Shown: positions 15,101-64,000 of the stretch, piece after piece | Layout of the letters: each line of letters begins with the position of its first letter | How positions within the stretch are numbered: position 1 is the stretch's first letter | Assembly (NCBI GenBank): GCA_947579605.1 | Contig: OX388322.1 | Location: 8,680,001 to 8,744,000, forward strand | Direction: 5' to 3' | From: Athripsodes cinereus | Lineage: Eukaryota; Arthropoda; Insecta; Trichoptera; Leptoceridae | Length of the DNA: 64,000 nucleotides | Notes under the pieces: generated by a model | Database searches by the model: none | Told to the model about the DNA's origin: nothing | The model's input: only the letters and a program-made list of their open reading frames with translations | Position numbers and translations under genes: made by a program

Positions 15101-17333
15101 ACATCTACTTTCTTATGATATTTGATATCAAAAATGTATTTCTACAAAAATTAAATGCTGAAGAGATCCATCATTAGCATCCTTTTATTTTTCCACAGAG
15201 ACAAAGTTTCATTGCATTGTTCAAAAAAATAACGTACTTTTTCGTCGGTAAAGAATTTTTTTTATTAGTTCAAGATTATAAAAGCTGAATTTCTTTTATG
15301 TAGATGAAATTTAAGATGTTGCATAGCTTAGTACTACTGACAACACAAATGGATAATAATTGCTCTTGAAGATTGTTGGATTGTATGGTCATTTGAATAC
15401 TCAATAATCCATTTAATTCAGACAATAGTAGGTACTTAGTTTAGGGGTTTTGTGATTAAAATTATGTATGCTAATTACCATGTGAATACATACTCATAAG
15501 ATTCATAAGCATATTGGATTAATGATAAGCAAACTTGAAGATTATAATATTGCATTACACGAGTCACGGCACTTATACGAGTCACAGCTTATAAATTACA
15601 ATTATATTCTCGTTTATACATTGTTATTTTATTCATATTGATCACAGTACTATGTATTTAAACAAAACAAAACATCATTATTATTGTACAGGAACGTGAC
15701 TTTGTGTCGATTTACCTTCCTATACCTTCATGGTACTTGGTATTATTCATCTGGCTTATCTTAGGTTTGCATTAGCATATTATTATACTTAGTATCGTTA
15801 TACAGTATTTGGCATTGTATGAGATTTCACGTATCGTTTCGTATGAAATCGAAAGTGATCCTATGGTTCGTATTGCGATAGCGAGTGTAGGTAAGATTTG
15901 TCATTAGAGCTCTTCTTCGTCTCGCTGGGTGAAATATTCGTCTAGTTTCTCTTTGCATAGTTTATTATGAAATACCTATATATGATTATACCACATAGTT
16001 GCAAGCTGTTGAACGTGGTTGATATTGAATCAGGATGTGTTCCCTTTCCTTTCTCTAACATGCATGCTCCTGATATCAGGTAAGTACCCATCGGAGTAGT
16101 TTTGTCAAGATTGGAAGAATTACATTTTTGAAATTCTCAGATTGATTTGATTAAGAATCTGGGTCAATTATAAAATTGTGAATGTAGGCTCTCTCGGTGT
16201 TCATAAACAGTGTAAAATTATATATTTACCTACCTACTTCATATAGGAATACGTTAGATTACTGTAATACTACAGTTCTTCAAAATATCGCGTTGATTAA
16301 ATTTGATGGATAATGTCTTTCGGTATCTTTACGACTAACCTTATAGCAGAGATTGGCGGGTCGATCTTACCGATCTCATCTCCCAAAATTAATTAATTGA
16401 ATTACTGCCATGAGAATTCTATGTTTATCGCATCTATTTTATTTAAATCATTTTCAATTTAGTACCAACACCTAAAACATTTATAGTTGATTCGATCGTC
16501 AATTTTATTGGTTTTTGTATGGTAGTGTTTCGTTGATCCTATCACACTACCAGATCAGCCCCTATCATAATACGAATAGCACATTTTTATACAATATCTT
16601 GACATTGTCAATCAATTATGTATTGTGAAACAATATCGATTCTCCCTCATCTAGTTAAATACCTATATCCTGTACAGGAATATTATGAATTGTATCGAGC
16701 GATTGCTAGAAAATATCATTGTAATTTCGTTAGGTACGTTAAACTTCAATTTCAGCTTTTGTGTACCCTTGATAATAATTTAAAAAAAAATGAGAATAGA
16801 TACGTGATCAGACGTAGGTATAACAAAGTAAGAATTGACATACGTATAACTTGAATTTTTCGTTAATTCTAGCACCACCGAAGTTAGTAAAGAATAATGT
16901 TTGTTTATTTCTATCATGTGTTTGTAGATAGGCATCACCTAATTTAGGTGTAGTTCTAGTATGTAGTTCCACCATTGAAAGCATAAATAAATCCTGTACC
17001 TTACATTTAGTGCCTATGGTGCATGTCGTGTATATTTTTATGGTTCACAGAAACGTCGGCACGTTGTACCCAAGTTTGAGTCATTAGGTAGGTAGATATT
17101 CCGTTTCATCATCATAATATCGCAATATCCAACATCAATGTTCTCTTCGTCTCGCCGCCCGTCTGCGGCCAACAATGGACTTCTTTTTCTTTTCTTCGAG
17201 GTCTCGGGTTCACTTGCAGTATGTAATTCGAAGCGACCGGTTTTTATTTTGCACAAAAGTCACTCGACACGTTCAAGACTCCATAGTAAATAATACTGTG
17301 TATTATATTCGACATAACATTAATTTTACTTAT

Positions 17334-17364
17334 CGTCGGCTTAACATGTAAATTTGCTAACTCC
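17334..17364 (+). repeat. Left terminal inverted repeat of the Sola-like element
   Basis: 31 bases exactly complementary to 20831-20861. The inner part (TTTGCTAACTCC) recurs as diverged subterminal copies near 17487, 17521, 17733 (inverted) and 17789 (inverted). Confidence 0.92.
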
Positions 17365-17948
17365 ACTTTTTGCCGAAAATGATCTAATGATGGCGTTTAT
17401 TTCCCTTAATATCAATACGTCATTTGCGTTAGTTTGACATCTCCAGCGTATTAAAATTTTGGTAAAAATGAGTCTCAAGAAAATTTGATAACTCCACTTT
17501 GAATGAAAGCGTTAAGATAATTTTGACAACTCCGCCATTTTGTTTGTGTACGTATGAGAGTTCGGACGCATCCTTGGTGCTGCTGGTATAATTAGTTTAT
17601 AACAGTATTTTTTCAAGTTGTGTTGTAGAAGGAGTAGATTATTTAAGTTAATGTGAGTATTAACTTGACTTATTGCTTATTTTAAATGATTTATTCTACT
17701 GTAATATTGTAAAATATGTATGTATAAACATCTTATGGAGTTAGCAATTTTTCTGAATGCACATTATACTGTTGCAGGATGACATAACAGGAGTTATCAA
17801 TTATTCGTTGTTAAATAATATTACTGTTGGTTAACTTCATTTAAGCAATTTATGAAACACTGAATTTGCTGTGAATAAAATTATATTAAAAATGAATTAT
17901 TTTTAATGTACCTACTGTAATTAAAACACCTAACATTTTGTTTCATAG

Positions 17949-20184
17949 ATGAATAGTAGAGGCAAAGCAATGGCTGCATTGGCATTAGAAAAGAAGAAAA
18001 ATGTTAATATTGATCTTTCAAACAATTTACGAGAAAACCCAGAAATGATTTTGGATTTACCAATTGTATTTGTTGAAGAGGATGCCACTGAGATGGTAAA
18101 TGTACAATCGGAGAACATTCCAACGCAGGATTTACAAGATATTCAATCTGATAACGTTCTGAACAATATAGATATAAGTGATGATGATTGTGATAACAGG
18201 GTTGTCACGTCTTTAGTTCCTTATTCTGAACATTCTGATTCTGGTTCCGATGATACGTGTAATAATAATATACAGCTGAAGAAAACAAGAAGGAAGAGGT
18301 GTCACATGGATAAGTCTTTATGGCAATCTGCCAAAAATCAACGGGAAAGGGAAAAAGGAAAGCAATACCTTGGGAGGAAAAAAGACAGTAGTGATGGGTT
18401 ATGGAAATATGATTTATTGAAAAAAAGTAAAACAGTAAAGCAAAGATGTAAATGTAGTAATTCAAAAAAAAGTATTTTTAAATGTTTTTCTCTGTCAGAT
18501 GAAGATCGAGTTAATATTTTCAATAAATTTTGGAACCTGAATTGGAATGAAAAAAAAATTTATGTGGATAGCTTAATTACATTTATCCCCATAAAAAGAG
18601 CGAGGGATCGAAAAGATTCAGACAATTCAAGACGAACTAATTCGGCTCTTTATTATTTAAGAAAGAATGATGTTGATATCCGTGTATGCAAAACAATGTT
18701 TCTTCATACATTAGATATAAATAGAATGACGATATATAATTGGAAAAAGGATAGTGCTATTTCACAACCTAAAAATACAAATAAGCGTCAATGTAACAAC
18801 ATTCAGAATGAGAAAAATAAAAGTATCGTAAGTTTTGTAGAATCGCTGCCAAAACTCGAATCTCATTATTGCAGAAAATCAACCACCAAACTCTATTTAT
18901 TACCAGAATGGAGGACAAAGAAAGATTTATACGATTTTTATAAATCTGAATGTTTGGAAAAAAGCGAAAAACCTTTGTCAGTCTGCTCTTTTTATAAATT
19001 TTTAGAAAAAGAAAATATATCTTTATTCCAGCCGAAAAAAGATGCGTGCGAAAAGTGCACCGCATTCAAACAAGGAAAAATACAGAAAGAAGAATTTGAA
19101 CTGCACCAAAAGAAGAAAGAAGAAGCCAGGAATGAGAAAAACAGGGATAAAGAAGAACAGGAACATATTTTTACAATGGACCTTCAAGCTGTTCTCCTGG
19201 CTCCTAAGTCTAATGTATCAACTCTGTATTACAAAACTAAATTGTGTGTGCACAACATGTGTTTCTACAATTTAAAAACAAAGGAAGGCTATTGCTACAT
19301 CTGGAATGAAAGTGAAGGTGGCTTAAATGCCGAAGAATTTTCTTCTATTTCAAGTAATTTCTTGATCAATAAGGTAATACCTAAAATTGAACGAACGGAA
19401 GGGGCCAAAATCATCCTGTACAGCGATGGATGTACTTACCAAAATAGGAACAGTACACTATCAAACGTTCTATTAAACGTTGCTCAATTGTACAACGTTA
19501 CGATTGAGCAGAAATTTTTGGAATTGGGTCACACCCAAATGGAGGTCGATTCTATGCACGCCTGTATAGAGCGTCAGCTTAAAAATAGAACAATATTTGC
19601 TCCAGCAGAGTATTATGGGATCTGCAAAGCTGCTAGACGATCGTCTCCATATGATGTGACTTATTTGAATCATACTTATTTTAAAAATTTCCACAACATA
19701 CAATATTTCAAGACAATAAGACCAGGCAAAATAAAAGGTGATCCGAAGGTAAATGTCATACAATCCGTTTTATAATAATAATACACCTTACTATTTATTC
19801 ATCATTGTCTCAATATAAATAGGGACTAGATAATGTTTTTATAAAGTTACAGTATCTATTGTGAAATTCATTTAGTCAAGAATTTTATTATAAATAATTC
19901 TATATAATAATATAATTGTATGTTTCTTTCAGGTTACTGACATACGGGCACTTTGTTATACTCCTGATGGCTCAATTTTTTACAAACTAAGATTTTTTGA
20001 ATCCTGGACAGTTTTACCCCAAAGAAGGAATAACTCCGTGAGAGCTATACCTATTGAAAATCTCGAAAGTTTGCATACATCAAGGCTGAAGATAAAGTTG
20101 AGAAAATATAATGATTTGCAGGACCTAAAAATAATAATACCGACTGATTATCACGAATATTATGATAACCTTCCCCACGAGTAG
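17949..20184 (+). CDS. Transposase of the Sola-like element (2 exons, ~683 aa)
   Basis: Exon A is 17949-19748 and exon B 19933-20184. The donor AAG|GTAAAT and acceptor TTTCAG|GTT join in phase 0; without splicing exon A ends eight codons later. The N-terminal third is acidic then basic. Cysteine pairs CKC (residues 167-169) and CEKC (367-370) suggest zinc binding. The C-terminal core shows TMDLQAVLLAPK with D411, ILYSDGCTYQNRN with D493, and LGHTQMEVDSMHACIER with D534, fitting a DDD RNase-H-like catalytic core. An E follows at 541. I recognise the family from insect proteins labelled uncharacterised. The ATG directly follows TTTCATAG, so a non-coding first exon is likely, with a possible donor at about 17651. 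No stops or frameshifts are seen, so it may be functional. Confidence 0.85.
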
Positions 20185-20266
20185 TTTCCTCTGATTTATG
20201 TCTTTACAATGTTATTTTCAATAATATTTCTATAATTCTTATGCTTATGTGTCTTTTTCAACAAAA

Positions 20267-20530
20267 TTTTTTGTTACGTAACAAAAAGGTTCCGTATTAA
20301 AACTGAATAAATGCTTGCAAATTTATATTGATTGAAATAATATTTTACTATTTTACTATCAATAATGTTTTTATAATTCATGTAGGTACATATCTTGTAA
20401 AATAATGTTTTTTGTTACGTAACAACAAAGTTCCGTATTGAAACTGAATTATATTCTCAGATTTATATTAATTGAAATAATATTTTACTATTTTATTATC
20501 AATAATGTTTTTATAATTTATTTTCATATT
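20267..20530. repeat. 141-bp tandem duplication inside the Sola-like element
   Basis: Two units, 20267-20407 and 20408 to about 20530, each start with TTTTTTGTTACGTAAC (containing the palindrome TTGTTACGTAACAA) and proceed through GTTCCGTATT.AAACTGAA and AATAATATTTTACTATTTTA. The units lie just after the transposase stop codon and have diverged at several positions. Confidence 0.85.
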
Positions 20531-20830
20531 TTTTAAATAAAGTTTTTCTTGCATTATAACGAGGTTCTTCATTCAAACTAAATGATTTATTTATTTTACA
20601 AACTTGCTAACTCCTATAACACGACTCGTCTTGAACATCATCGATCGCCGAAAATTTGCTAACTCCAAATATCGTCAATAAAAAAAATATTGCAAGAGTT
20701 ATTTTATATATATTTAGTTTAAATATCGTTCTTTCGTTTTAATTATCATTTAAAATTAAAATAATTCAATATAAGATAAAGTTGGAAAAAATGCACAGTT
20801 TTTTTATCCTCCTGTAAAATTGATCAAAAC

Positions 20831-20861
20831 GGAGTTAGCAAATTTACATGTTAAGCCGACG
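20831..20861 (-). repeat. Right terminal inverted repeat of the Sola-like element
   Basis: Perfect complement of 17334-17364. Internal subterminal words of the same type occur at about 20605 and 20652. Confidence 0.92.
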
Positions 20862-21887
20862 TTATGTTTGTTGTTGCCAACTCTTTAAAAATTGGACGGT
20901 TTTTAAATATATTGTTTGCTGTTTCGTAAATGTCATTATTATGCAAATTATCCATTAGATACTTAGTTTATTTGTCTTAATATCTCTGTCGCGTCTAATG
21001 TTTTCTTCATAGCAACCATATATAAGAAAACCATATTATTAGGTACTTGAATGTCCTGCGGACCCACATATTATTCGAAGATCATAACAATCCAGCCGTC
21101 AATCCTTTCATGTATACAGAAATAGATAATAATTATGTAGTACTGAGAGCCTAATTTAAGTTAATTATAAGACACTGGTTTTCGTTAATGAAAACCATGT
21201 CATCTACAAAAGGTGGTATAAATAATATGTACTAGATATTCTGCATGTACGAATGCAATAGGCTAACTGTGCTTCTCGTTTTCTTCTTCATACTTACATA
21301 CCTAATTATTATTAACATTGCTCGCAACTTGTGAATTCTCTTCACATTTTTAGTTGCCTCCGTTTAGCATGGTTGGAGTATTGTCACTTTTTTGTCATCT
21401 TTAATTTTATCTGCACGACTAAAACTTTTCATTATTTTACTTCATTGGTACTTTAATATTGTAATGAATGGCCACTGTTCCAATTCGGAATTCAACTTTC
21501 AATGTACGACTTGTTTCATGGGAATATTTCAGTTAATGTTTTTATTTTTATATAATAATATTGGGATAAAAGTGTACCTACTATGCAAAATAATGTTTCT
21601 AGTTCTACATAATATATGTTGATTTTCTTATTAGCGGCATTTCAATCGTATATTGATTCTATTGATCTCTCATTTAACTTCTTAATATGCGTATATTATA
21701 TTATGTTGTTTAGTCATTAAAAATACTGCGTGTCAAAAATATTTAATGTATACAATCATAAACAATTAGGACAGTACTTGAACGACCCACATACATTCAT
21801 TGCGCAATCTTACGGTCTAGTGGTCAGACCATCTTGTCATCACAGAATTTTATGTACCCCACTACCCTTACGTAGGATAGCTTACTA

Positions 21888-46721: not shown

Positions 46722-48101
46722 CAGTAGTGTGCGAATTAATGTGAACATGACTTAATTAAAACATTTTCCGTGTTTGCAACACTACACAATCACGATATGT
46801 CGGCCATTTTGAATTTTGTGTATCTACTTCAGTCGTGTAGAGTATTAGCTGTCGTTTGGTTGTGAGTTTGGTGCAGTTAAAGCGATTTTGAAGGTTTTTG
46901 AAAGCAATTTCTACCTACGGTCTGTTTTGTCAAGATTTTATTAGTGATTTTTTGAAGTTTGTGCAATGGATATCACTCCACGAAAACGGGAAAAGATTAT
47001 CACTTTATGTGAGCATACTTCAATGAGTCAAAGGAAGATTGCCGAACAGTGTGGGGTTAGTCTGGGTGCTGTCAATAAAATTATTAAGCAGAAAAGGGAA
47101 ACTGGGTCTGTTAAGGTGAAAAGAGTTGGAAAATGTGGGAGAAAAAGAAAAACTTCAGCAAGGGATGAAGCATATTTAATCAGAAAAAGTAAACTGAACC
47201 CTAGGATGACGATTTTTGATCTGCAGCAAGATTTGGAGGCCAACGGAGTGAAAATTCATGACTCCACAGTAAGGAAACGACTCATTGAATCTGGAAGAAA
47301 GGCTATAAGACCACAAAAGAAACAGTTGTTGACAGCAGATATGATGAAAAAAAGATATATTTGGGCTAAAAAGTATGCTGATTGGACGGAAGACCAATGG
47401 AAAAATGTTTTGTTTTCTGATGAAACTCACTTTTTGGTCCAAGGAGAGCGCTCACGTTATGTAAGAAAGAGTTCAAATGAAAAAATCACTTCTGTTCACA
47501 TAGAACAAACGGTAAAACATCCACAAAAAGTTATGTTTTGGGGCTGCTTTTCTTTTTATGGTCCAGGATCGTTAGTGCCTGTTGTTGGGATGATGAACTC
47601 TGACAAATATAAAGAGTTATTGGAACAAAAATTAAATGGGGAATTGGGAAAAATTAATTCTAATGATAAATTATGGTTTCAACAAGATTCAGCACCTTGC
47701 CACAAATCCAAAAAGATGATTAAATATTTTGAAGAAAATAAAATAAATGTGTTGGATTGGCCAGGAAATTCACCTGACTTAAATCCAATCGAAAATTTAT
47801 GGGCGATTTGCAAACAACGGGTTCGAAAAATGGACTGTACAACTAAAAGGAAGATGATAGAAGCGGTAATTCAAGTGTGGTTTCGTGACGAGAAAATTAA
47901 AGAAAATTGTAAAAAATTAGTTGAATCGATGCCAAAAAGACTTCAGGACGTAATAAAAGCTAAAGGAGGACATACATCCTATTAAAATAAAAAAATAGTA
48001 ATAAGAAAAAACTGTTCTTTAAATTAAAATCTCATCTTATATAAAAAATGATTATTTTTGTGTTTTGTATACCCATGTTCACATTAATTCGCACACTACT
48101 G
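46722..48101 (+). mobile_element. Intact Tc1-like DNA transposon (1,380 bp)
   Basis: Perfect 28-bp inverted repeats at 46722-46749 and 48074-48101 (starting CAGTAGTGTGCGAATTAATG), flanked by TA at 46720-46721 and 48102-48103. It contains one full-length transposase frame. Size, ends and TA duplication fit the Tc1/mariner superfamily. Confidence 0.96.
46966..47985 (+). CDS. Tc1-like transposase, DD34E, 339 aa
   Basis: Cut-and-paste transposase for the surrounding element. The N-terminal helix-turn-helix (TPRKREKIITLCEHTSMSQR, then KIAEQCGVSLGAVNKIIK) is followed by a basic GRKRKTS motif and a second DNA-binding half with STVRKRL. The catalytic triad is D152 (FSDETHF), D241 (QQDSAPCH) and E276 (SPDLNPIENLW). 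There are exactly 34 residues between the last two, the Tc1 hallmark. The length is normal (about 340) and no stop or shift is present. The ATG at 46966 follows GTGCA and precedes the first helix directly, so it is a plausible start. The intact frame with perfect terminal repeats suggests recent, possibly continuing, mobility. Confidence 0.96.
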   Translation: MDITPRKREKIITLCEHTSMSQRKIAEQCGVSLGAVNKIIKQKRETGSVKVKRVGKCGRKRKTSARDEAYLIRKSKLNPRMTIFDLQQDLEANGVKIHDSTVRKRLIESGRKAIRPQKKQLLTADMMKKRYIWAKKYADWTEDQWKNVLFSDETHFLVQGERSRYVRKSSNEKITSVHIEQTVKHPQKVMFWGCFSFYGPGSLVPVVGMMNSDKYKELLEQKLNGELGKINSNDKLWFQQDSAPCHKSKKMIKYFEENKINVLDWPGNSPDLNPIENLWAICKQRVRKMDCTTKRKMIEAVIQVWFRDEKIKENCKKLVESMPKRLQDVIKAKGGHTSY

Positions 48102-53800: not shown

Positions 53801-56800
53801 CTCTCCACTGAATCTTGAACAGTGCTCACTCGTTCCCTGAAAATAATTTAACAACAAATTAATGAAAATTATTTTTTCGTGATTTTTCGATTTGTATTTG
53901 ACATTCCTATAAACTTTATTTTAATATGATTAAGTGGTACCTATTTCAAATTTTATTTTTTTGTGATTTTTTAAATTCGTACTTGAAAAAGATTGTTGTA
54001 TTGCATCAAACTGTGTTGTTGCTTTTTCATATATGTTTAATGGCCTTGTGCCGTGTATGTGATTATAAAAAAAAAGAAGTTATTAAATTGGAGGCAAAAA
54101 TATATGGTGTGCAATATTTATATAATGACTAATGACAGTAGTTATATAAAACGTAATGACATAAAACAAAGAAAGCATCGATACATTTTTATTATTTTTA
54201 TTGCAACCTTGCCAGAAAAGTTGGTATCGATCACCAATGTAATCCACATCAAATCTTTAATCAGAAAAAACTATTTTTTAATCACCTGATGATGGAGTCG
54301 AGAGCTCCGAATACTAGTAAGCGAAGTTAATAAAAGTTATTTGGAAGTTAACTACACACTGTGTTTTTTTTTCAATTTATCTTGAAATGGACTTCCAACA
54401 AGTACCTTCGGTCAATAACATTGAAATTCTACATGGTCAAGCCATGTAGTTCTCGAACGCCCACGCTTCGTCACACCCCTCCTTTCCGACAAGTATATCC
54501 TCTTTGTCATTCTTTCCTCTACCATTCGTTCCACATGACCAAACTATCTCTATTTATTTACATGCATTCGATTCACAACACTCCTCTTGCATCCACTTAT
54601 TCTTCTAATATCCTCATTCCTCACTCAACGTTTTACCAACCATTCTCCTCAGCGAACTCATCTCCACAGCATAACTGGTGGTGTGTAAAAAGAGTAAAAT
54701 ATATAAATAAGATGTAAAGATCTTCAGCAGATAAAATTACCAAAGGACATTAGGATCTCCTTAGTACCACCGCTGCCGCAGATACTGGTATATACTTTAT
54801 TAAGATTTACCTGAATTCCTGCATCTCTCTTCGCTCTTCCAAGGATATTTGTCTGGCTACTGAGGCTTTGCTTTGTTCTACCATCTCTAGGAAGCTTACT
54901 TCATCATCATCTAGCCCACGGATCATGTTCTCTGTTAACAAAACAATAATTCTGTACATGCATATTTAGAACGTATTTAGTCATAATGCTTACTTTTTTC
55001 AACCAGGAGAAGTAATCTACATGAATTCTGACTTTGCCGGATTGAGTTGTGAGAAAAAGTCTTTATAATGTAATAGTTTTTTAATGTAATGTAATAATTT
55101 TCTCCCACAAAATCGATTGGTCTGGCGTCTAGTTACATTTTTTACAGATATTTTTACCTACAGCAACGAGAAACATCACAAGGCAGCCACCTTAATCATT
55201 CCCCAATGAAATATTGACAGTTGCAGCTTTGGTTTGCTTTAGTTCGACGAGGTTATGTGTCTTCTCGTGAAACATCCCACATTGACGGCATTTTTCGTGT
55301 ATTATCGCGTCTATAGCATCTAGCAAGGCCGGTCGAATTCCAGAAACTAAATGACCTTGAAGTACTTGAGAGTACTGAGAAATACTAACAAGTCTCAGAC
55401 TCTGGGAAAGGAAACTCCTGCTCTACTCCTCCATATATTAGGAGGCGGGCAACGTCAAAAGAAACGACGTAGTAGACAGGGACCGATTGTTGGTCAGTAT
55501 AAGCTAACAACCAACCCTTCTTAGCGGAAGATGTTGGAAAGGGCACTCTCTTGCCCTAGGAGGAGCTAAAATCTTCTCAAAGGCGGAGGAACCTACGAGG
55601 TCAACGGCATGAGGATGTGGAATGCAAGGGAAGCTACCACATTAAAGGCTCTAGGAGCATCCCAAAGTACCAACGAATTATGAAAAATGATGAGATCTTT
55701 AGTAAAATCTTCCGGAGGTAAAATAGACCCCCGTTCGGCTCTCCGGGTGGGGTCTGCTCTAGATCTTGTCATTATGTCGAGTACAAACAAGAAAGAAGAG
55801 GAGGTGAGAAGAAAACAAACCAACCGAAACAGCACACAAGGAAGATACGCCACCTGGAACGTCAGAACTTTGCTGCAGAACAGTAAGCTTGACAACCTAA
55901 AAGAAGAGATGAAGAAAATGAAATTAAGCGCGCTTGGAATCTCTGAAATGAGATGGCCTAATCCTGGAGATATGTGGACGGGAGACTTTCGACTGATCCA
56001 TAGCGGTAGTATAGAGGGGAAACCGTGGCAAGGGGGGGTAGGAATCATGTTAAGTAAGGATTTGGGGAGGAGAGTAAAGGGGTATGTACAGTATGGAGGT
56101 AGAATTATTTTAGTCAAGCTAGACACCAGACCCGTAGATACAATACTCATTCAGGTTTACATGCCAACATCTAGCCATAGCGACGAAGAAATTGAAAGTA
56201 TATACGAAAATATCCAGAAATTGCTAGATGACACAAAAGCTGAGGAAAATGTGATTGTAATGGGAGACTGGAACGCAGTAGTTGGGGAAGAAAGAGAGGG
56301 ATCAGTCGTAGGAGCGTATGGGCTGGGCATTAGAAACGATAGAAGCAACCGTCTTATTGAATTTTGTGCCAAAAATAAAATGGTTATAGCAAACACGTGG
56401 TTCCAACACCACTATAGACATCGATATACGTGGAAATCTCCCGGAGACAGATTCCGGTCGCAGATTGACTACATTTTAACGCGGCAACGGTATAGAAACC
56501 AAATTAAAGATTGCAGGAGCTATGCAGGCCCGGACATTGATAGCGACCATAATATGGTTGTGGCGGAAACCATACTGAAATTCAAAAAGCTCGAGAAGAG
56601 AACCACAAAAAGATGGGACTTAAAGCTTTTAAAAACAAAAGAAGTAAAAGAGAAATACGACGAAAAAACTAAGGTTTGCGATTTTGAAAGCAATGAAAGT
56701 GTAAACAGAGTATGGGAGAAAATCAAAGAGAAAATAACCACAGCGGCAGACGAGGTAATAGAGAAAGGAAAGCCGCAAGCTAGGAAAGAATGGATTACGG

Positions 56801-59800
56801 AAGATATATTAGAAATGATTGAAGAAAGAAGGAGCTCGAACTCGAGAACAGAAGAAGGAAAAAAGGAATATAAAATCTTGAGAAACAAAATCAACAGGGA
56901 GTCCAAATTGAGAAAGGAATGCTATCTGCAAGAAAAATGCAGGAATATCAACAGAAATATAAAACAAAGGAAATTTGAAACCGCATATTCTGAAGTCAAG
57001 AATTTTTTCAATGATAAGACACAGCCACGATGTGCTATCCAAGATCAAAACGGCAAACTACTGTTTGAGGATGAATTGATCGTTAACCTGTCCGTGAGTG
57101 AATAAAGAAAAAATAAAAGTGTATGGCAGAGTGAATTAATTCAACTTTCACTTTTTGAATATTTTTTTATCGCATGTTATAGAAAATGATCCCTAGAATA
57201 AATGTTTATAAGGAACCAACTCTCAAAAATTAATAATAACGGAGTTATATAACAAAAACAATTTTGATACGTCATGTCTGCTCCGGTATTGTCAACAATG
57301 GGTTCTACATAGGAATATTTATTATTATTAAAAATATTTATTTTTATTTGTTTTTAACAAAAACTTATGTAAGTACTAAAAACTAATTAAATTGTCCAGA
57401 ATTAGCACAAAAAGTAAAAAAAAATCCATAAAACACTCTACAAAATAACACCCATAGTGCACGAACGTACGCAGCAAAATGGTTTGCAACCGCGAGTGAC
57501 GGCTAGGTATTTCAAGCGGCGGTCACGTGACATTTTGTATAGGCGATAAATAAGGTCTAAACACGCCTATTTTTGATTTTTTTCTTGTGATTGGTAAAGT
57601 ACATCCGACAGATTGGACCAATGATGAAATTGACGAATTTGGCGGGAATACCTAAATATTACTGGATCAAACGCACCGGTGCGTGCGTACTCCAGATCCC
57701 ATAATATTTCTTGCACGCACCGGTGCGTTGGTACTCCTTTACAGGTTAAAAGGTGGAAAGAATACCTAGAACAACTTTACAAAGGAAAGAACATACTTGA
57801 GGAAAGCAAAGCACTGGAAACAGAATATGACAAAGAAAATAATGGAGATGATATCTTAAGAAGTGAATTTGATAATGCCTTATCAAAATTGAAAGACGGC
57901 AAAGCACCAGGTATTGACCTAATCCCATCAGAGCTGCTTAAATGCGCAGGAAGCGGCATGCTTGACACTTTGTATAAGCTTGTCTGCAAAATATATAACA
58001 CAGGAGAGATACCTGAGGACTTCACCAAATGTCTGATACGAGCGCTACCTAAGAAAACAGGCACGACAAAGTGCGAACAACATAGAACATTAAGCATGAT
58101 ATCACACGCTTCTAAGATACTCACCAACATTATAATAAAAAGGGCGGAAAGTAAAATCAACGAAACACTTTCAGAAGATCAATTTGGATTCCGCAAAGAG
58201 ACAGGTACAAGAGATGCAATTCTGAGTCTAAGACTTGTTCTTGAAAAAAGAATAACAGTGAATAGAAACACGTATGTAGCATTCATCGACCTAGAAAAAG
58301 CATTCGATAAAGTAGAATGGGAACAACTTTTTAAGACTCTAAACCAGATAGGAATGAGCTATAAGGACAGAAGAGCAATCTGGAGCCTATACAAGAATGA
58401 AATGGCTGTAATTAAAAGCGGAGAGAGCTGCGCAGAAGCGAGGGTAGAACAAGGTGTAAGACAGGGTTGCTCAATGTCGCCGGCACTCTTTAACTGCTAT
58501 ATACAGGGAGCTATTGATGAATAAGAGAAGAAATGAAGAACTGGACAGGAGTAAAAATAAATGGGAAAAAGGTCGACATGATTAGATATGCTGACGACAT
58601 AGCACTGCTCGCAGACTCCGAGATGGAGCTGAACGAAGCCTTAGGAAAAATGGAAAGTTTACTGTTGTCAAAGTACAACATGAAAATAAATAAAGATAAA
58701 ACAAAATGTATGGTCGTTGGAAGGGAGGAAGCGACTGCGAACATTGCCATAAATGGAGTGAGCATCAAACAAGTAAGAGAATTCGTGTACTTGGGTAGCA
58801 GAATAAACCAGGACGGACGCTCCAAATCAGAATTTGTGAGCAGAATAAACCAGGCACGAATTGCCTTTAACAAAAAATCCAAAATATTAGAATCCCCTAA
58901 TATTGATCTAAGCGTGAGGAAGAATCTCACTAAAGCCTTTGTGTGGAGCATTCTGCCATATGGGTGCGAGACGTGGACCATCAGCAAGAGGGAAAGCGGA
59001 CGGTTAGCGGCATTTGAAATGTGGTGCTATAGACGCATGCTGAAGATTCATTGGTCGGAACACGTCGAAAACGAAGAAGTGTTATCCAGGGTTGGCGAAA
59101 AAAGGCAACTCCTCAAAAGGATCTGCCAACAACGAGCTAATTGGATTGGCCACAACATCAGGCACCCAGGACTGCTCATCGCAATCGCAGAGGGCAGGAC
59201 CGAAGGCACAAATGGCAGAGGTCGACCGAGAGACGCCTATATGGACCAACTGAAGAGGGACATGAGCTGTGGCTCATATATGGAGTTGAAGAGACTGGCT
59301 GAGAATAGGGAGGAGTGGAGAAATAAGTCAAAACTCGTTGCAGACCAATCCAATGGATTGTAACTCATTATATATATAATAGTTTATACAATGTTATCTG
59401 CTCCCCTCCTATACACAAGTTTACTTTTTAAGGAGGGTTAAACAGTAAAATACAAGAATACTTATTTGATATTGTAATATGAGTATGTTTAAGGTTGTTA
59501 TATTTTTATGTTCAATAAAATTGTTAAAAAAAAATTGTACTTGTACATCTAAACCACACACAAGTTCCAAAGCAAATCAAGAAATTGATCCAAAAGAGAC
59601 TCACTCAGTTTATGTGCCTCTTCATAATCTGCATCTTTCTTATTCTTCTGTTCTTCCAAGCGTTGATAGAGCGGCCTGGGATCATACACTTCTTCAGGAG
59701 CCTCTAAAATACAAACAATCAATTGAAAACAACATCCAGAAATTATTATTAGCTTTGCAAAAAACTCGAAATTTATTTACACAATGGAGGTTATTTAAAT

Positions 59801-60568: not shown

Positions 60569-62262
60569 CCCTTAAATGCATGATTTTTTATTTTTTATTG
60601 AAAAAATCAAATTAAATTATTTTTATACTCATTTATCTAGGAAAAATATTAAAAAAAAATTTTTTTTGTTTTTTGTCTTATTTTGAAAAAAATAAGAATG
60701 TTGTCAATTGACAACACCATGCAGTAATAGCTCAAAATATGTAAGTCAGTTAATCATTATCTCCTCATAAATTTTCGAGTAAATAAAACATTTTTTTTTA
60801 TTTTTTTATTTTTTTATTTTATTTTTTTAAATTACAAACTATATTGCTGCTGGGTAGTAAATCAGGTTCCTCAGGCCTCCTCAATTCGCTGTTATTTTCT
60901 TGCCCTGAATATATCTCAAACCGATACGCAAACCCAGTTATATCACACAATACAAACAGTTTGAAGCCCCATTTGTGTGGTTTTTTTGCAAGGTACTGCT
61001 TCATATAATGTCCAATTTTTGAGGAACACATTTGTTCATCAACGCAGAGACTTTGTTCCAAAGGAATTTTAGAAAACTTTTCATTAAGCTGATCGTATAA
61101 AGGCCTGATTTTGTGTAACCTGTCATGATCTGAATGGGTCCTTGGTAACAATGTGGAATTTTTATTAAAATGAAGACATTCCCTTATTTTTTCAAAACGG
61201 TTAATGGTCATTGTATTGCATATTGGTAAAAATGGGTAATCATTTGACTAGTAAGAACGTGTGCTGGGGTAACGAAAAACTGACATAAAAATTAATATTC
61301 CGAAAAACTGCCTTATTTCTAAATCTGTCATAGCTACTTGGTTGGATCATACATCTTGGTTGGAGTTTTTTCTGCGCTGTATAAATTTGTTTCATCCATA
61401 ATATATTCATCTGAAAAGAAGTAACAGTGCAGTGGTGTATCCATATCTAATATATCTTGAGAAAGACTTGTGTTCCCCATGGACGACGATGCTGACTCAT
61501 CACATACTCTTTGGGTCTTCTTCCAAAGTAGCTTACTGAAGATATTTTTAGAAAAAGATGGTCTTACAATACTGGGATGAGTAAATGAATTGTCACTTTC
61601 ATCTTCTATGATAGGAGGGTCAACTTCAGATGCTGGTACATCTCCATTAGAAGGAATAACCTGGCACTCGTCATCAACGTAAGGTAGTTCAGGGCGGTAT
61701 TCAGCATCAGCAACACTGTCATCATCGCTGAATTCCATCTCATCTTCACTGCCATCTAACTTGGCCAGATATCTCTCCACCTCCTCTTCATTTAATTTTT
61801 TTTGGTGCTCATTTTGTTATCTAAAATACAAAATAACATATATACACAGTACATTCAATTGAATGTGACTTAATGCATGCTGTTGTCAATTGACAACATT
61901 CATAAAAATAGGTATAAAAAAATAAAATAAACATAAAATGTGTAAAAAATTATCATAATCCAACATACTAACCTGTGTTTTATTGGTAAATATTTTTTTA
62001 CGGTAAGATAATTTGAAAAATACACCAAAAACTCGTTTTCAAATTCAAGCAAAGTATTAGAAATCACAGCTAGAGAATTCAAAACTTCAACTCTCAAAAA
62101 TTTTCTTACCTTAAGTCAAATGCAAACGATTTTGCAAGTATAGTAAAGAAGAAATCTTCTAATATCGATTATAGTACAAAACATTACACAATGTCAAGTC
62201 GTTTCCCGCCAATATTATAGCTTAGATCGTGTTGTCAAATGACAACAGGATGCATTTAAGGG
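60569..62262 (-). mobile_element. piggyBac-type element, internally deleted (1,694 bp)
   Basis: Inverted ends CCCTTAAATGCAT at both sides, flanked by TTAA at 60565-60568 and 62263-62266. The palindrome TTGTCAATTGACAA occurs near the left end (60702) and again at about 61881, with a TTGTCAAATGACAAC variant at 62232. The transposase is truncated. It lies about 520 bp upstream of the PSME3IP1 start codon. Confidence 0.92.
60819..61813 (-). pseudogene. piggyBac transposase, truncated and broken
   Basis: The N-terminal part (ERYLAKLDGSEDEMEF, then acidic) ends at about 61334, followed by AMTDLEIRQFFGILIFMSVF in another frame. Then SNDYPFLPI and MTINRFEKIRECLHFN lead to the first catalytic region SLCVDEQM and KPHKWGFKLFVLCD. 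Lesions: a shift in an A run just after an upstream ATG (near 61813), a one-base shift near 61336, a TAG where YWSN would be expected (about 61250), and loss of the frame after SGQENN...PSSNIV at 60819. The second half of the catalytic domain and the cysteine-rich tail are deleted. Confidence 0.85.
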
Positions 62263-62504: not shown

Positions 62505-64000
62505 TATATTTATTTATTTATTTTATTTATTCATTCTTTACTGTACATTGATAAAAAACAATTACATAAAAGGTATACATTCAAATTAAATACAATCAAT
62601 ATACAGAGGGCGAGTTTATCGCAAAGGCGCGATCTCTTCCAACTAACCCAAAAGTATTAACTTAAAAAAATAAACAAACATATGATGAAAATAAAAAACA
62701 TACACACATATATATAAAAAGGGAGAGACTGCAAAAAAAAAAAAACAAACATACATGCATAAAGGGAAAGGAAAAGGGGGAAAAAGGGGGGGGGGGTTAG
62801 GAGTGATGGGTTTCAGGTTTCAGAGGCTGTGTTTGTGTTTGTTGAAATCATTTTGTCCTTAACGGCTCGCTTGAAAGACGTCAGACTTTGAGTCAGCCTA
62901 AATTTTGAAGGGAGATTATTCCAGCAACGAGCACCCTGAACTGCAAAAGATTTTGAGATGAAAGTTGTACCATGAGCCGGGATTGACAGGATGCGCTGGT
63001 TATTCGACCTCAGAGGTAAACCGTGACTCGCCAAGTATTCAAAAGCCTCCTTAATATAGTACGGGGTTGATCCTGCGTACAGAGCATTGTGGACAAATGT
63101 GAGTAGATGGAGCTCACGTCTTTGTCGTACAGTAAGCCATTTCAGGGTATTACGATATTCAGAAATGTGGTCAGTTTTTTTTAAATTAAAAATAAACCTT
63201 ATGCCAACATTCTGAAGTCGATCAAGTTTGTCAATTAGATCCTGATTCATGTCCACATACACGATATCAGCATAGTCGATAATGGGCAACAGCAAGGATT
63301 GGACCAATAAAATTTTTACTTTAGTGGGCAAGAATTTTTGCAGCATCTTAAGAGTGTGGAACTTGTAAAAAAACTTTTTCTTTAGAGTGTTAAATTGATG
63401 CTGCCAAGAGAGTCTCTGGTCCATGATTATGCCCAAATTCTTTACTGTCGCCGAAGAGGGTATTGCTACTGAATTCATAGTAGTGGGAGGTAAATTCAAA
63501 TTTTTCAACCTGGATATAGAGTGAAGGCTACCAATGAATATTGTCTGGGTTTTTGAGGCATTGAGGAGTAATCCATGAGCACTAGCCCAGTTTGAGATCT
63601 GTTGCAAACACACATTGGTAGAATAGATGGCAGAGGAGATATTGTGAAGTTTAGCATGTGTATAGATTTGCAAATCGTCCGCATATAGATGGTAGCGACA
63701 AGGCAACTGTTTCACAATTGGATTTATAAACAGGGAAAAGAGTAACGGAGAAAGTATTCCTCCTTGAGGAACTCCCGCCGTCAGAGTCACCCACCCCGAT
63801 TCAACACCACGACACATCCGGACACACTGCCGCCGATCCTTCAAGTACGAAGCAAACCAATCCACACAAGACTGGGAAACATTAATGTTTTTAAGAGAAG
63901 CTATTAAAAGATCCGTGTCAACCGAGTTGAAAGCACTGCTGAAATCTAGCAATGTAAGTTGTGTGACTTGTTGATCTTCCATAGCCCACCTAACATCCTC
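62505..64000 (-). mobile_element. Jockey/CR1-like LINE, 3' part, runs off the window
   Basis: The minus strand carries a reverse transcriptase with a 3' UTR that ends in a TAAATAAATA-type tail near 62505. The UTR (ACAGAGGGCGAGTTTATCGC) recurs at 23435-23510. Purine and G runs at 62761-62796 lie just after the stop codon. Confidence 0.88.
62813..64000 (-). CDS. LINE reverse transcriptase, partial (C-terminal ~395 aa)
   Basis: The frame is open from the right edge (EDVRWAMEDQQVTQL...) to a stop at 62813-62815. Motifs in order: TLLDFSSAFNSVD (RT motif A), AGVPQGGILSPLLFSLFIN (motif B), YHLYADDLQIY (catalytic YADD), NASKTQTIFIG (motif D), LGIIMDQRLSW, and the tail ARCWNNLPSKFR. No stop or shift is seen in the visible 395 residues, so the copy may be young. 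The endonuclease part lies outside the window. The clade is Jockey or CR1-like by motif style. Confidence 0.92.
   Translation of the reverse strand, partial: EDVRWAMEDQQVTQLTLLDFSSAFNSVDTDLLIASLKNINVSQSCVDWFASYLKDRRQCVRMCRGVESGWVTLTAGVPQGGILSPLLFSLFINPIVKQLPCRYHLYADDLQIYTHAKLHNISSAIYSTNVCLQQISNWASAHGLLLNASKTQTIFIGSLHSISRLKNLNLPPTTMNSVAIPSSATVKNLGIIMDQRLSWQHQFNTLKKKFFYKFHTLKMLQKFLPTKVKILLVQSLLLPIIDYADIVYVDMNQDLIDKLDRLQNVGIRFIFNLKKTDHISEYRNTLKWLTVRQRRELHLLTFVHNALYAGSTPYYIKEAFEYLASHGLPLRSNNQRILSIPAHGTTFISKSFAVQGARCWNNLPSKFRLTQSLTSFKRAVKDKMISTNTNTASET

Follow-up and report, generated by a model that had tools for sequence, protein, structure and literature searches.

The window analysed here, the whole 64,000-nucleotide stretch of Athripsodes cinereus DNA at positions 8,680,001 to 8,744,000 of contig OX388322.1, contains at positions 17334 to 20861 an element with the ends and the gene of a DNA transposon. 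The ends are 31-bp terminal inverted repeats (TIRs, CGTCGGCTTAACATGTAAATTTGCTAACTCC), which are identical and perfect and are directly flanked on both sides by TTAT; the TIR pattern, with up to 3 mismatches allowed, occurs twice in the window, at the two ends of the element, and in none of 100 dinucleotide shuffles. The predicted gene consists of exons 17949-19748 and 19933-20181, with a stop codon at 20182-20184, and encodes a protein of 683 residues having aspartates at positions 411, 493 and 534. An earlier note, made from the letters alone, had described these repeats, the TTAT copies immediately outside them and this two-exon open gene, and in coordinates and residues the description holds. 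The element is very probably an autonomous, recently mobile DNA transposon with a spliced transposase of the DDD type (three catalytic aspartates) and of predicted RNase H-like fold, related to the Pfam family DUF7869 and most likely belonging to the Sola superfamily (Sola2-like). It is a new example within a large group of insect transposons, rather than a new kind of element.

The features of the element are listed here, where A denotes the family of the window element, B and C are related families in the same genome (L037 and L038 are copies of family B) and L040 is a locus of a related family:

17330..17333, no strand: left target-site duplication (TSD) TTAT; a 4-bp duplication is present in 5/5 family-A copies
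17334..17364, plus: left 31-bp TIR, whose inner end carries the motif TTGCTAACTCC
17485..17495, plus: subterminal repeat TTGATAACTCC, 152-162 from the left end; found at this distance in both A and B and mirrored in C
17523..17533, plus: subterminal repeat TTGACAACTCC, 190-200 from the left end; L038 also has it, C has it mirrored, and in L037 it was not found
17737..17747, minus: internal repeat TTGCTAACTCC in reverse orientation
17790..17800, minus: internal repeat TTGATAACTCC in reverse orientation
17949..19748, plus: transposase exon 1, residues 1-600, with D411, D493 and D534
19749..19932, plus: putative 184-bp GT-AG intron; the related L040 is uninterrupted at the junction
19933..20184, plus: transposase exon 2, residues 601-683, and stop codon
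20203..20521, no strand: 3' non-coding direct repeats with a spacing of about 141 bp; several small length differences between copies lie here
20604..20614, plus: subterminal repeat TTGCTAACTCC, 248-258 from the right end
20656..20666, plus: subterminal repeat TTGCTAACTCC, 196-206 from the right end
20831..20861, minus: right 31-bp TIR
20862..20865, no strand: right TSD TTAT

The copies of family A were searched in the 716-Mb genome that contains the window. The search with the whole element finds four full-length copies, the window copy included, and one copy with an insert of 1483 bp, as well as some short pieces and more distant relatives. The search with the TIR (up to 3 mismatches), which would miss copies with more decayed or missing ends, finds 10 places, and these are exactly the ends of the five copies (the reversed control gives 0). 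Identical 4-bp repeats, TTAT, ATAT, ATAT, ATAA and ACAT, are found outside the ends in all five, so that the other copies with 4-bp duplications, for which the earlier note had proposed to search, are indeed present. The copy C22 is inserted within a long open frame, and the two pieces of this frame, in the flanks of the copy (L033), have no Pfam match above a curated cut-off.

The search for empty sites covered two of the copies, C9 and the window copy, and found such sites for C9. When the flanks of the C9 copy are joined, these 300 bases match 40 places at 97-99% identity, from about base 78-87 to base 300 and thus through the junction at base 150, whereas the outer left part of the flank is unmatched at these places; as 40 of 243 candidates were scored, there are at least 40 such places. 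The target is present once in all 10 empty sites that were read, and therefore the C9 insertion added the element and 4 bp. The surroundings of C9 are a high-copy repeat (L047-L056, L032), of which there are at least 40 near-identical places and which is apparently itself young. A similar situation is seen in a family-B copy filled by a family-C element, where ATAT is found on both sides of the insert and the site is single in three uninterrupted B copies (L035, L037 and L038). The spliced, conserved open frame could also be that of a domesticated host gene, surrounded by repeats by chance; this reading is refuted by the 31-bp TIRs, the TSDs of 5/5 copies and the empty sites at one insertion, and its probability is practically nil.

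The copies C6 and C9 differ at 1 of 3512 bases, although the sequences that flank them do not match each other; the right TIR of C9 has one mismatch. The window copy differs from these two, its nearest copies, by 0.83-0.85%. An open frame is seen in the window copy, in C6 and in C9, and a broken one in C22 and C8. Comparison of the window copy with C6 gives 7 non-synonymous and 8 synonymous changes; given the counted sites, 7 or fewer non-synonymous among 15 has a P of 0.003 under neutrality, and selection has thus maintained the reading frame between lineages. The near-identity of C6 and C9, together with the C9 empty sites, makes recent movement of the element well supported, in agreement with the suggestion of mobility made in the earlier note, and the element may be active at present. 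It is also possible, but doubtful, that the element is structurally complete and now immobile, its frame being merely young and silenced by the host: there are just five copies with these ends and the window copy is at some distance from its nearest copies, but this fits less well with the single-base difference between C6 and C9 and with a frame kept by selection between lineages.

The putative splice of 19748 to 19933 is supported because the similarity of the protein to L040 is uninterrupted at the junction, with no intron there, and because homologues align across it. The residues 411, 493 and 534 are aspartates in 41/41 aligned sequences, and the cysteines (C167, C169, C179, C367 and C370), which the earlier note had seen as pairs, are likewise invariant in these 41 sequences. 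An RNase H-like fold, whose presence the earlier note had proposed to check, is predicted for the 683-residue protein by its structure model. The search with the window protein gives 1136 relatives; those of the best 120 that have a name come from insects and are for the most part labelled hypothetical, unnamed or uncharacterised, the nearest named homologue being from Scirpophaga. Among the best 120 matches of each of three protein searches (with 1136, 229 and 297 matches), none bears the name Sola. No solved structure was matched by sequence search, and the NCBIfam search of the protein gave nothing meaningful.

In Pfam, the sole match of the window protein is DUF7869 (PF25273), at residues 475-560, covering D493 and D534, with D411 preceding it. 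This family is matched by 41/41 aligned members at E ≤1 (best 5.2e-8), and its 26-bit cut-off is passed by the distant paralogue L043 (34.5 bits) and by family F (51.7 bits). When profiles are compared, the family-A profile (A1) aligns with that of a paralogue family (A2, 23 sequences) at a probability of 99.9 and an E of 1.6e-34, and with the F protein at an E of 5.6e-46, in both cases with the three aspartates in register. DUF7869 matches over the cut-off number at least 150 in this genome (150 of 404 candidates were scored), and 0 in 14 control genomes. DUF7869 is therefore most readily understood as a part of a DDD transposase's catalytic domain. The term DUF7869 is absent from the literature searched.

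Among nine tblastn alignments of eight related loci in this genome, seven have aspartate at all three catalytic places; the decayed L035 has retained just the first one, and in L039 the third stretch is missing. Family B has the TIR CGATGGCTTAAAGTGTAAATTTGCTAACTCC, with matching TSDs in 2/4 both-ended copies (AAAT and ATAT). Family C is represented by the 2524-bp element (L036:2399-4922), with the TSD ATAT, which is nested in the family-B copy at one of the subterminal repeats of the latter and in which tblastn finds no transposase similarity. Family D has the TIR CGTTGGTTAAACATGCTAAACTGCTAACTCC, the TSD AATG and a stop codon in its frame. Family F has two identical 3587-bp copies on different contigs, L057 (C15:19598350-19601936) and L058 (C24:6126377-6129963), with the TSDs ATTT and ATAT, and seven further places score the same or nearly the same with the same frame length; family F at least moved very recently in this genome.

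Motifs resembling TTGCTAACTCC recur at similar distances from the ends in families A, B and C but are not shared by D. One end has them at about 21, 152 and 190, all pointing the same way, except that L037 lacks the one at 190. From the other end they lie at 21 (within the TIR), 196 and 248 (238 in B), and here the two farther ones have the opposite orientation. Part of the sharing between A and B is common descent, because their ends are about 68% alike. When up to 2 mismatches are allowed, the window contains 11 occurrences of the repeat TTTGCTAACTCC, 8 of these inside the element, and as 5 of 100 shuffles reach 11 over the window, it is the clustering inside the element, not the total count, that is telling; the 11-base form occurs 9 times inside and 7 times outside. 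The motifs resembling TTGCTAACTCC may well be binding sites of the transposase, and the shared ends with the recurring subterminal repeats provide a testable prediction of the binding positions.

The length of the TSD by itself cannot separate Sola from piggyBac, Kolobok, Chapaev-type CMC and Ginger elements, and it was considered whether the element comes from one of these other groups. Kolobok elements target TTAA, and CMC (Chapaev) transposases have a DDE triad, whereas the third acid is aspartate in 41/41 sequences here, Chapaev being compared by this feature only. The piggyBac target is TTAA as well (PMC4735498), but TTAA is seen in 0/11 matching TSDs, and never as a target of family A, which rejects both piggyBac and Kolobok. 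The Ginger integrase core resembles that of Gypsy by sequence (PMC10741241); the 41 members together match 21 Pfam families at E ≤1, none of which is an integrase core model. Tc1/mariner was rejected on the 4-bp TSD and on the lack of a Tc1 or mariner match in Pfam. Neither piggyBac, Tc1 nor integrase is matched by the window protein, though the same library detects the piggyBac and Tc1 genes of the window; a match to a different superfamily, against which the earlier note had cautioned, was thus sought in Pfam and none was found. An origin from another group with 4-bp TSDs is therefore highly improbable.

The Sola superfamily, including its Sola2 group, was reportedly treated by Bao et al. 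in 2009, and its transposases are not known to resemble other transposases. Matching 4-bp TSDs are found in 11/13 both-ended copies of families A-D and F (L039 and L041, with one end missing or displaced, were excluded), and 7 of the 11 are AWWT (ATAT five times, AAAT and ATTT), the others being TTAT, ATAA, ACAT and AATG. Sola elements have a DDD transposase, a 4-bp TSD and TIRs of 11-1124 bp (PMC10741241), a range that includes the perfect 31-bp TIRs seen here, and the Sola2 targets in dictyostelids are AWWT, ATAT, AAAT and ATTT (PMC3627910), which the targets here fit fairly well. The Sola-like character proposed in the earlier note is thus supported by the length of the TSD, by the composition of the targets, by the DDD triad and by the TIRs, and membership of Sola1/2/3 itself is likely rather than proven.

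Several points weigh against this assignment. It rests on these four features, with the Sola transposases compared by description only. The DUF7869 scores of the window protein (21.7 bits) and of family B (17.3 bits) are below the curated cut-off, and matching TSDs are absent in 2/4 both-ended family-B copies. Foldseek with the whole model gives TM scores of at most 0.18 for the best three structures, with Argonautes mixed into the list. Copies with the family-A ends number only five, and no short non-autonomous derivatives with these ends are found genome-wide at up to 3 mismatches. Scans with two peptide patterns confirmed no relatives in viral contigs or in bacterial and archaeal genomes, while Sola is reported from bacteria (PMC10741241).

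Alternatively, the DUF7869 proteins could form one very large, amplifying insect DDD superfamily, separate from the published Sola1/2/3 and characterised by 5'-CG ends, by 4-bp targets rich in A and T and, as regards families A-C, by an asymmetric subterminal array that is conserved, the window element being a low-copy autonomous member; the 4-bp AT-rich TSD and the DDD triad would then be convergent or anciently shared. This is unlikely, without being negligible. It would agree with the lack of bacterial relatives in the two-pattern scan and with DUF7869 being a Pfam family of no assigned function that is not mentioned in the literature searched, and the comparison with Sola by description leaves room for it. 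On the other hand, the 4-bp TSD, the DDD triad, the TIRs and the largely AWWT target agree with Sola and Sola2 (PMC3627910 and PMC10741241), and Sola elements of moths are reported to be mobile (PMC4735498 and PMC6983493), as the DUF7869 group appears to be here.

In the proposed mechanism, the cysteine-rich, helix-turn-helix-like N-terminal part of the transposase would contact the TIR in its inner half as well as the TTGCTAACTCC repeats in the subterminal regions, possibly with zinc. Cutting would occur at the 5'-CG ends, with D411, D493 and D534 holding two metal ions, and the excised element would be inserted into AT-rich 4-bp targets (TTAT, ATAT, ATAA, ACAT) with a 4-bp stagger filled in by host repair, thus probably by cut-and-paste rather than by copying. 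No Sola transposase is known to have been studied biochemically. The present element, complete and recently moving, with known ends, targets, empty sites and an open gene, is ready for an excision and integration test. These data also suggest a function for DUF7869, and the insect proteins found with the window protein are best read as transposases, to be masked rather than annotated as host genes.

Other mobile elements are also present in the window:

46966-47985, plus: open 339-codon Tc1-type transposase gene, with HTH_Tnp_Tc3_2 and DDE_3
55687-59363, plus: non-long-terminal-repeat retrotransposon, apparently broken, with endonuclease and reverse transcriptase in separate frames
60819-61780, minus: piece of a piggyBac-type transposase, with DDE_Tnp_1_7 in 60819-61211; the frame 61334-61780 has no Pfam match and may be another part of it
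62813-63982, minus: second reverse transcriptase frame, near the window end

When compared with known systems, the element has in common with Sola2 (PMC3627910) the DDD transposase, the TIRs and the AT-rich 4-bp TSD. It differs in the TIR length, which is 12-13 and 21 bp in the dictyostelid elements of that paper and 31 bp here, and in the target, with 4/11 TSDs that are not AWWT (TTAT, ATAA, ACAT, AATG). With Pfam DUF7869 the match over D493 and D534 is shared, whereas the score under the cut-off and the position of D411 outside the matched stretch are differences. The transposase domains of Mos1 and SETMAR (Tc1/mariner) are 10-11% identical, have an unlike N-terminal region and belong to elements whose target is TA (PMC10741241), as opposed to the AT-rich 4-bp targets here. 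Insertions of Sola elements from Trichoplusia ni and Spodoptera exigua into baculovirus genomes are described in PMC4735498, PMC6983493, PMC8634313 and PMC5704228, the last of which lists the target as AT; mobile Sola elements in moths are therefore not new, given the insertions reported in the first two. These elements, compared by description only, are likewise insect DNA transposons, mobile in moths.
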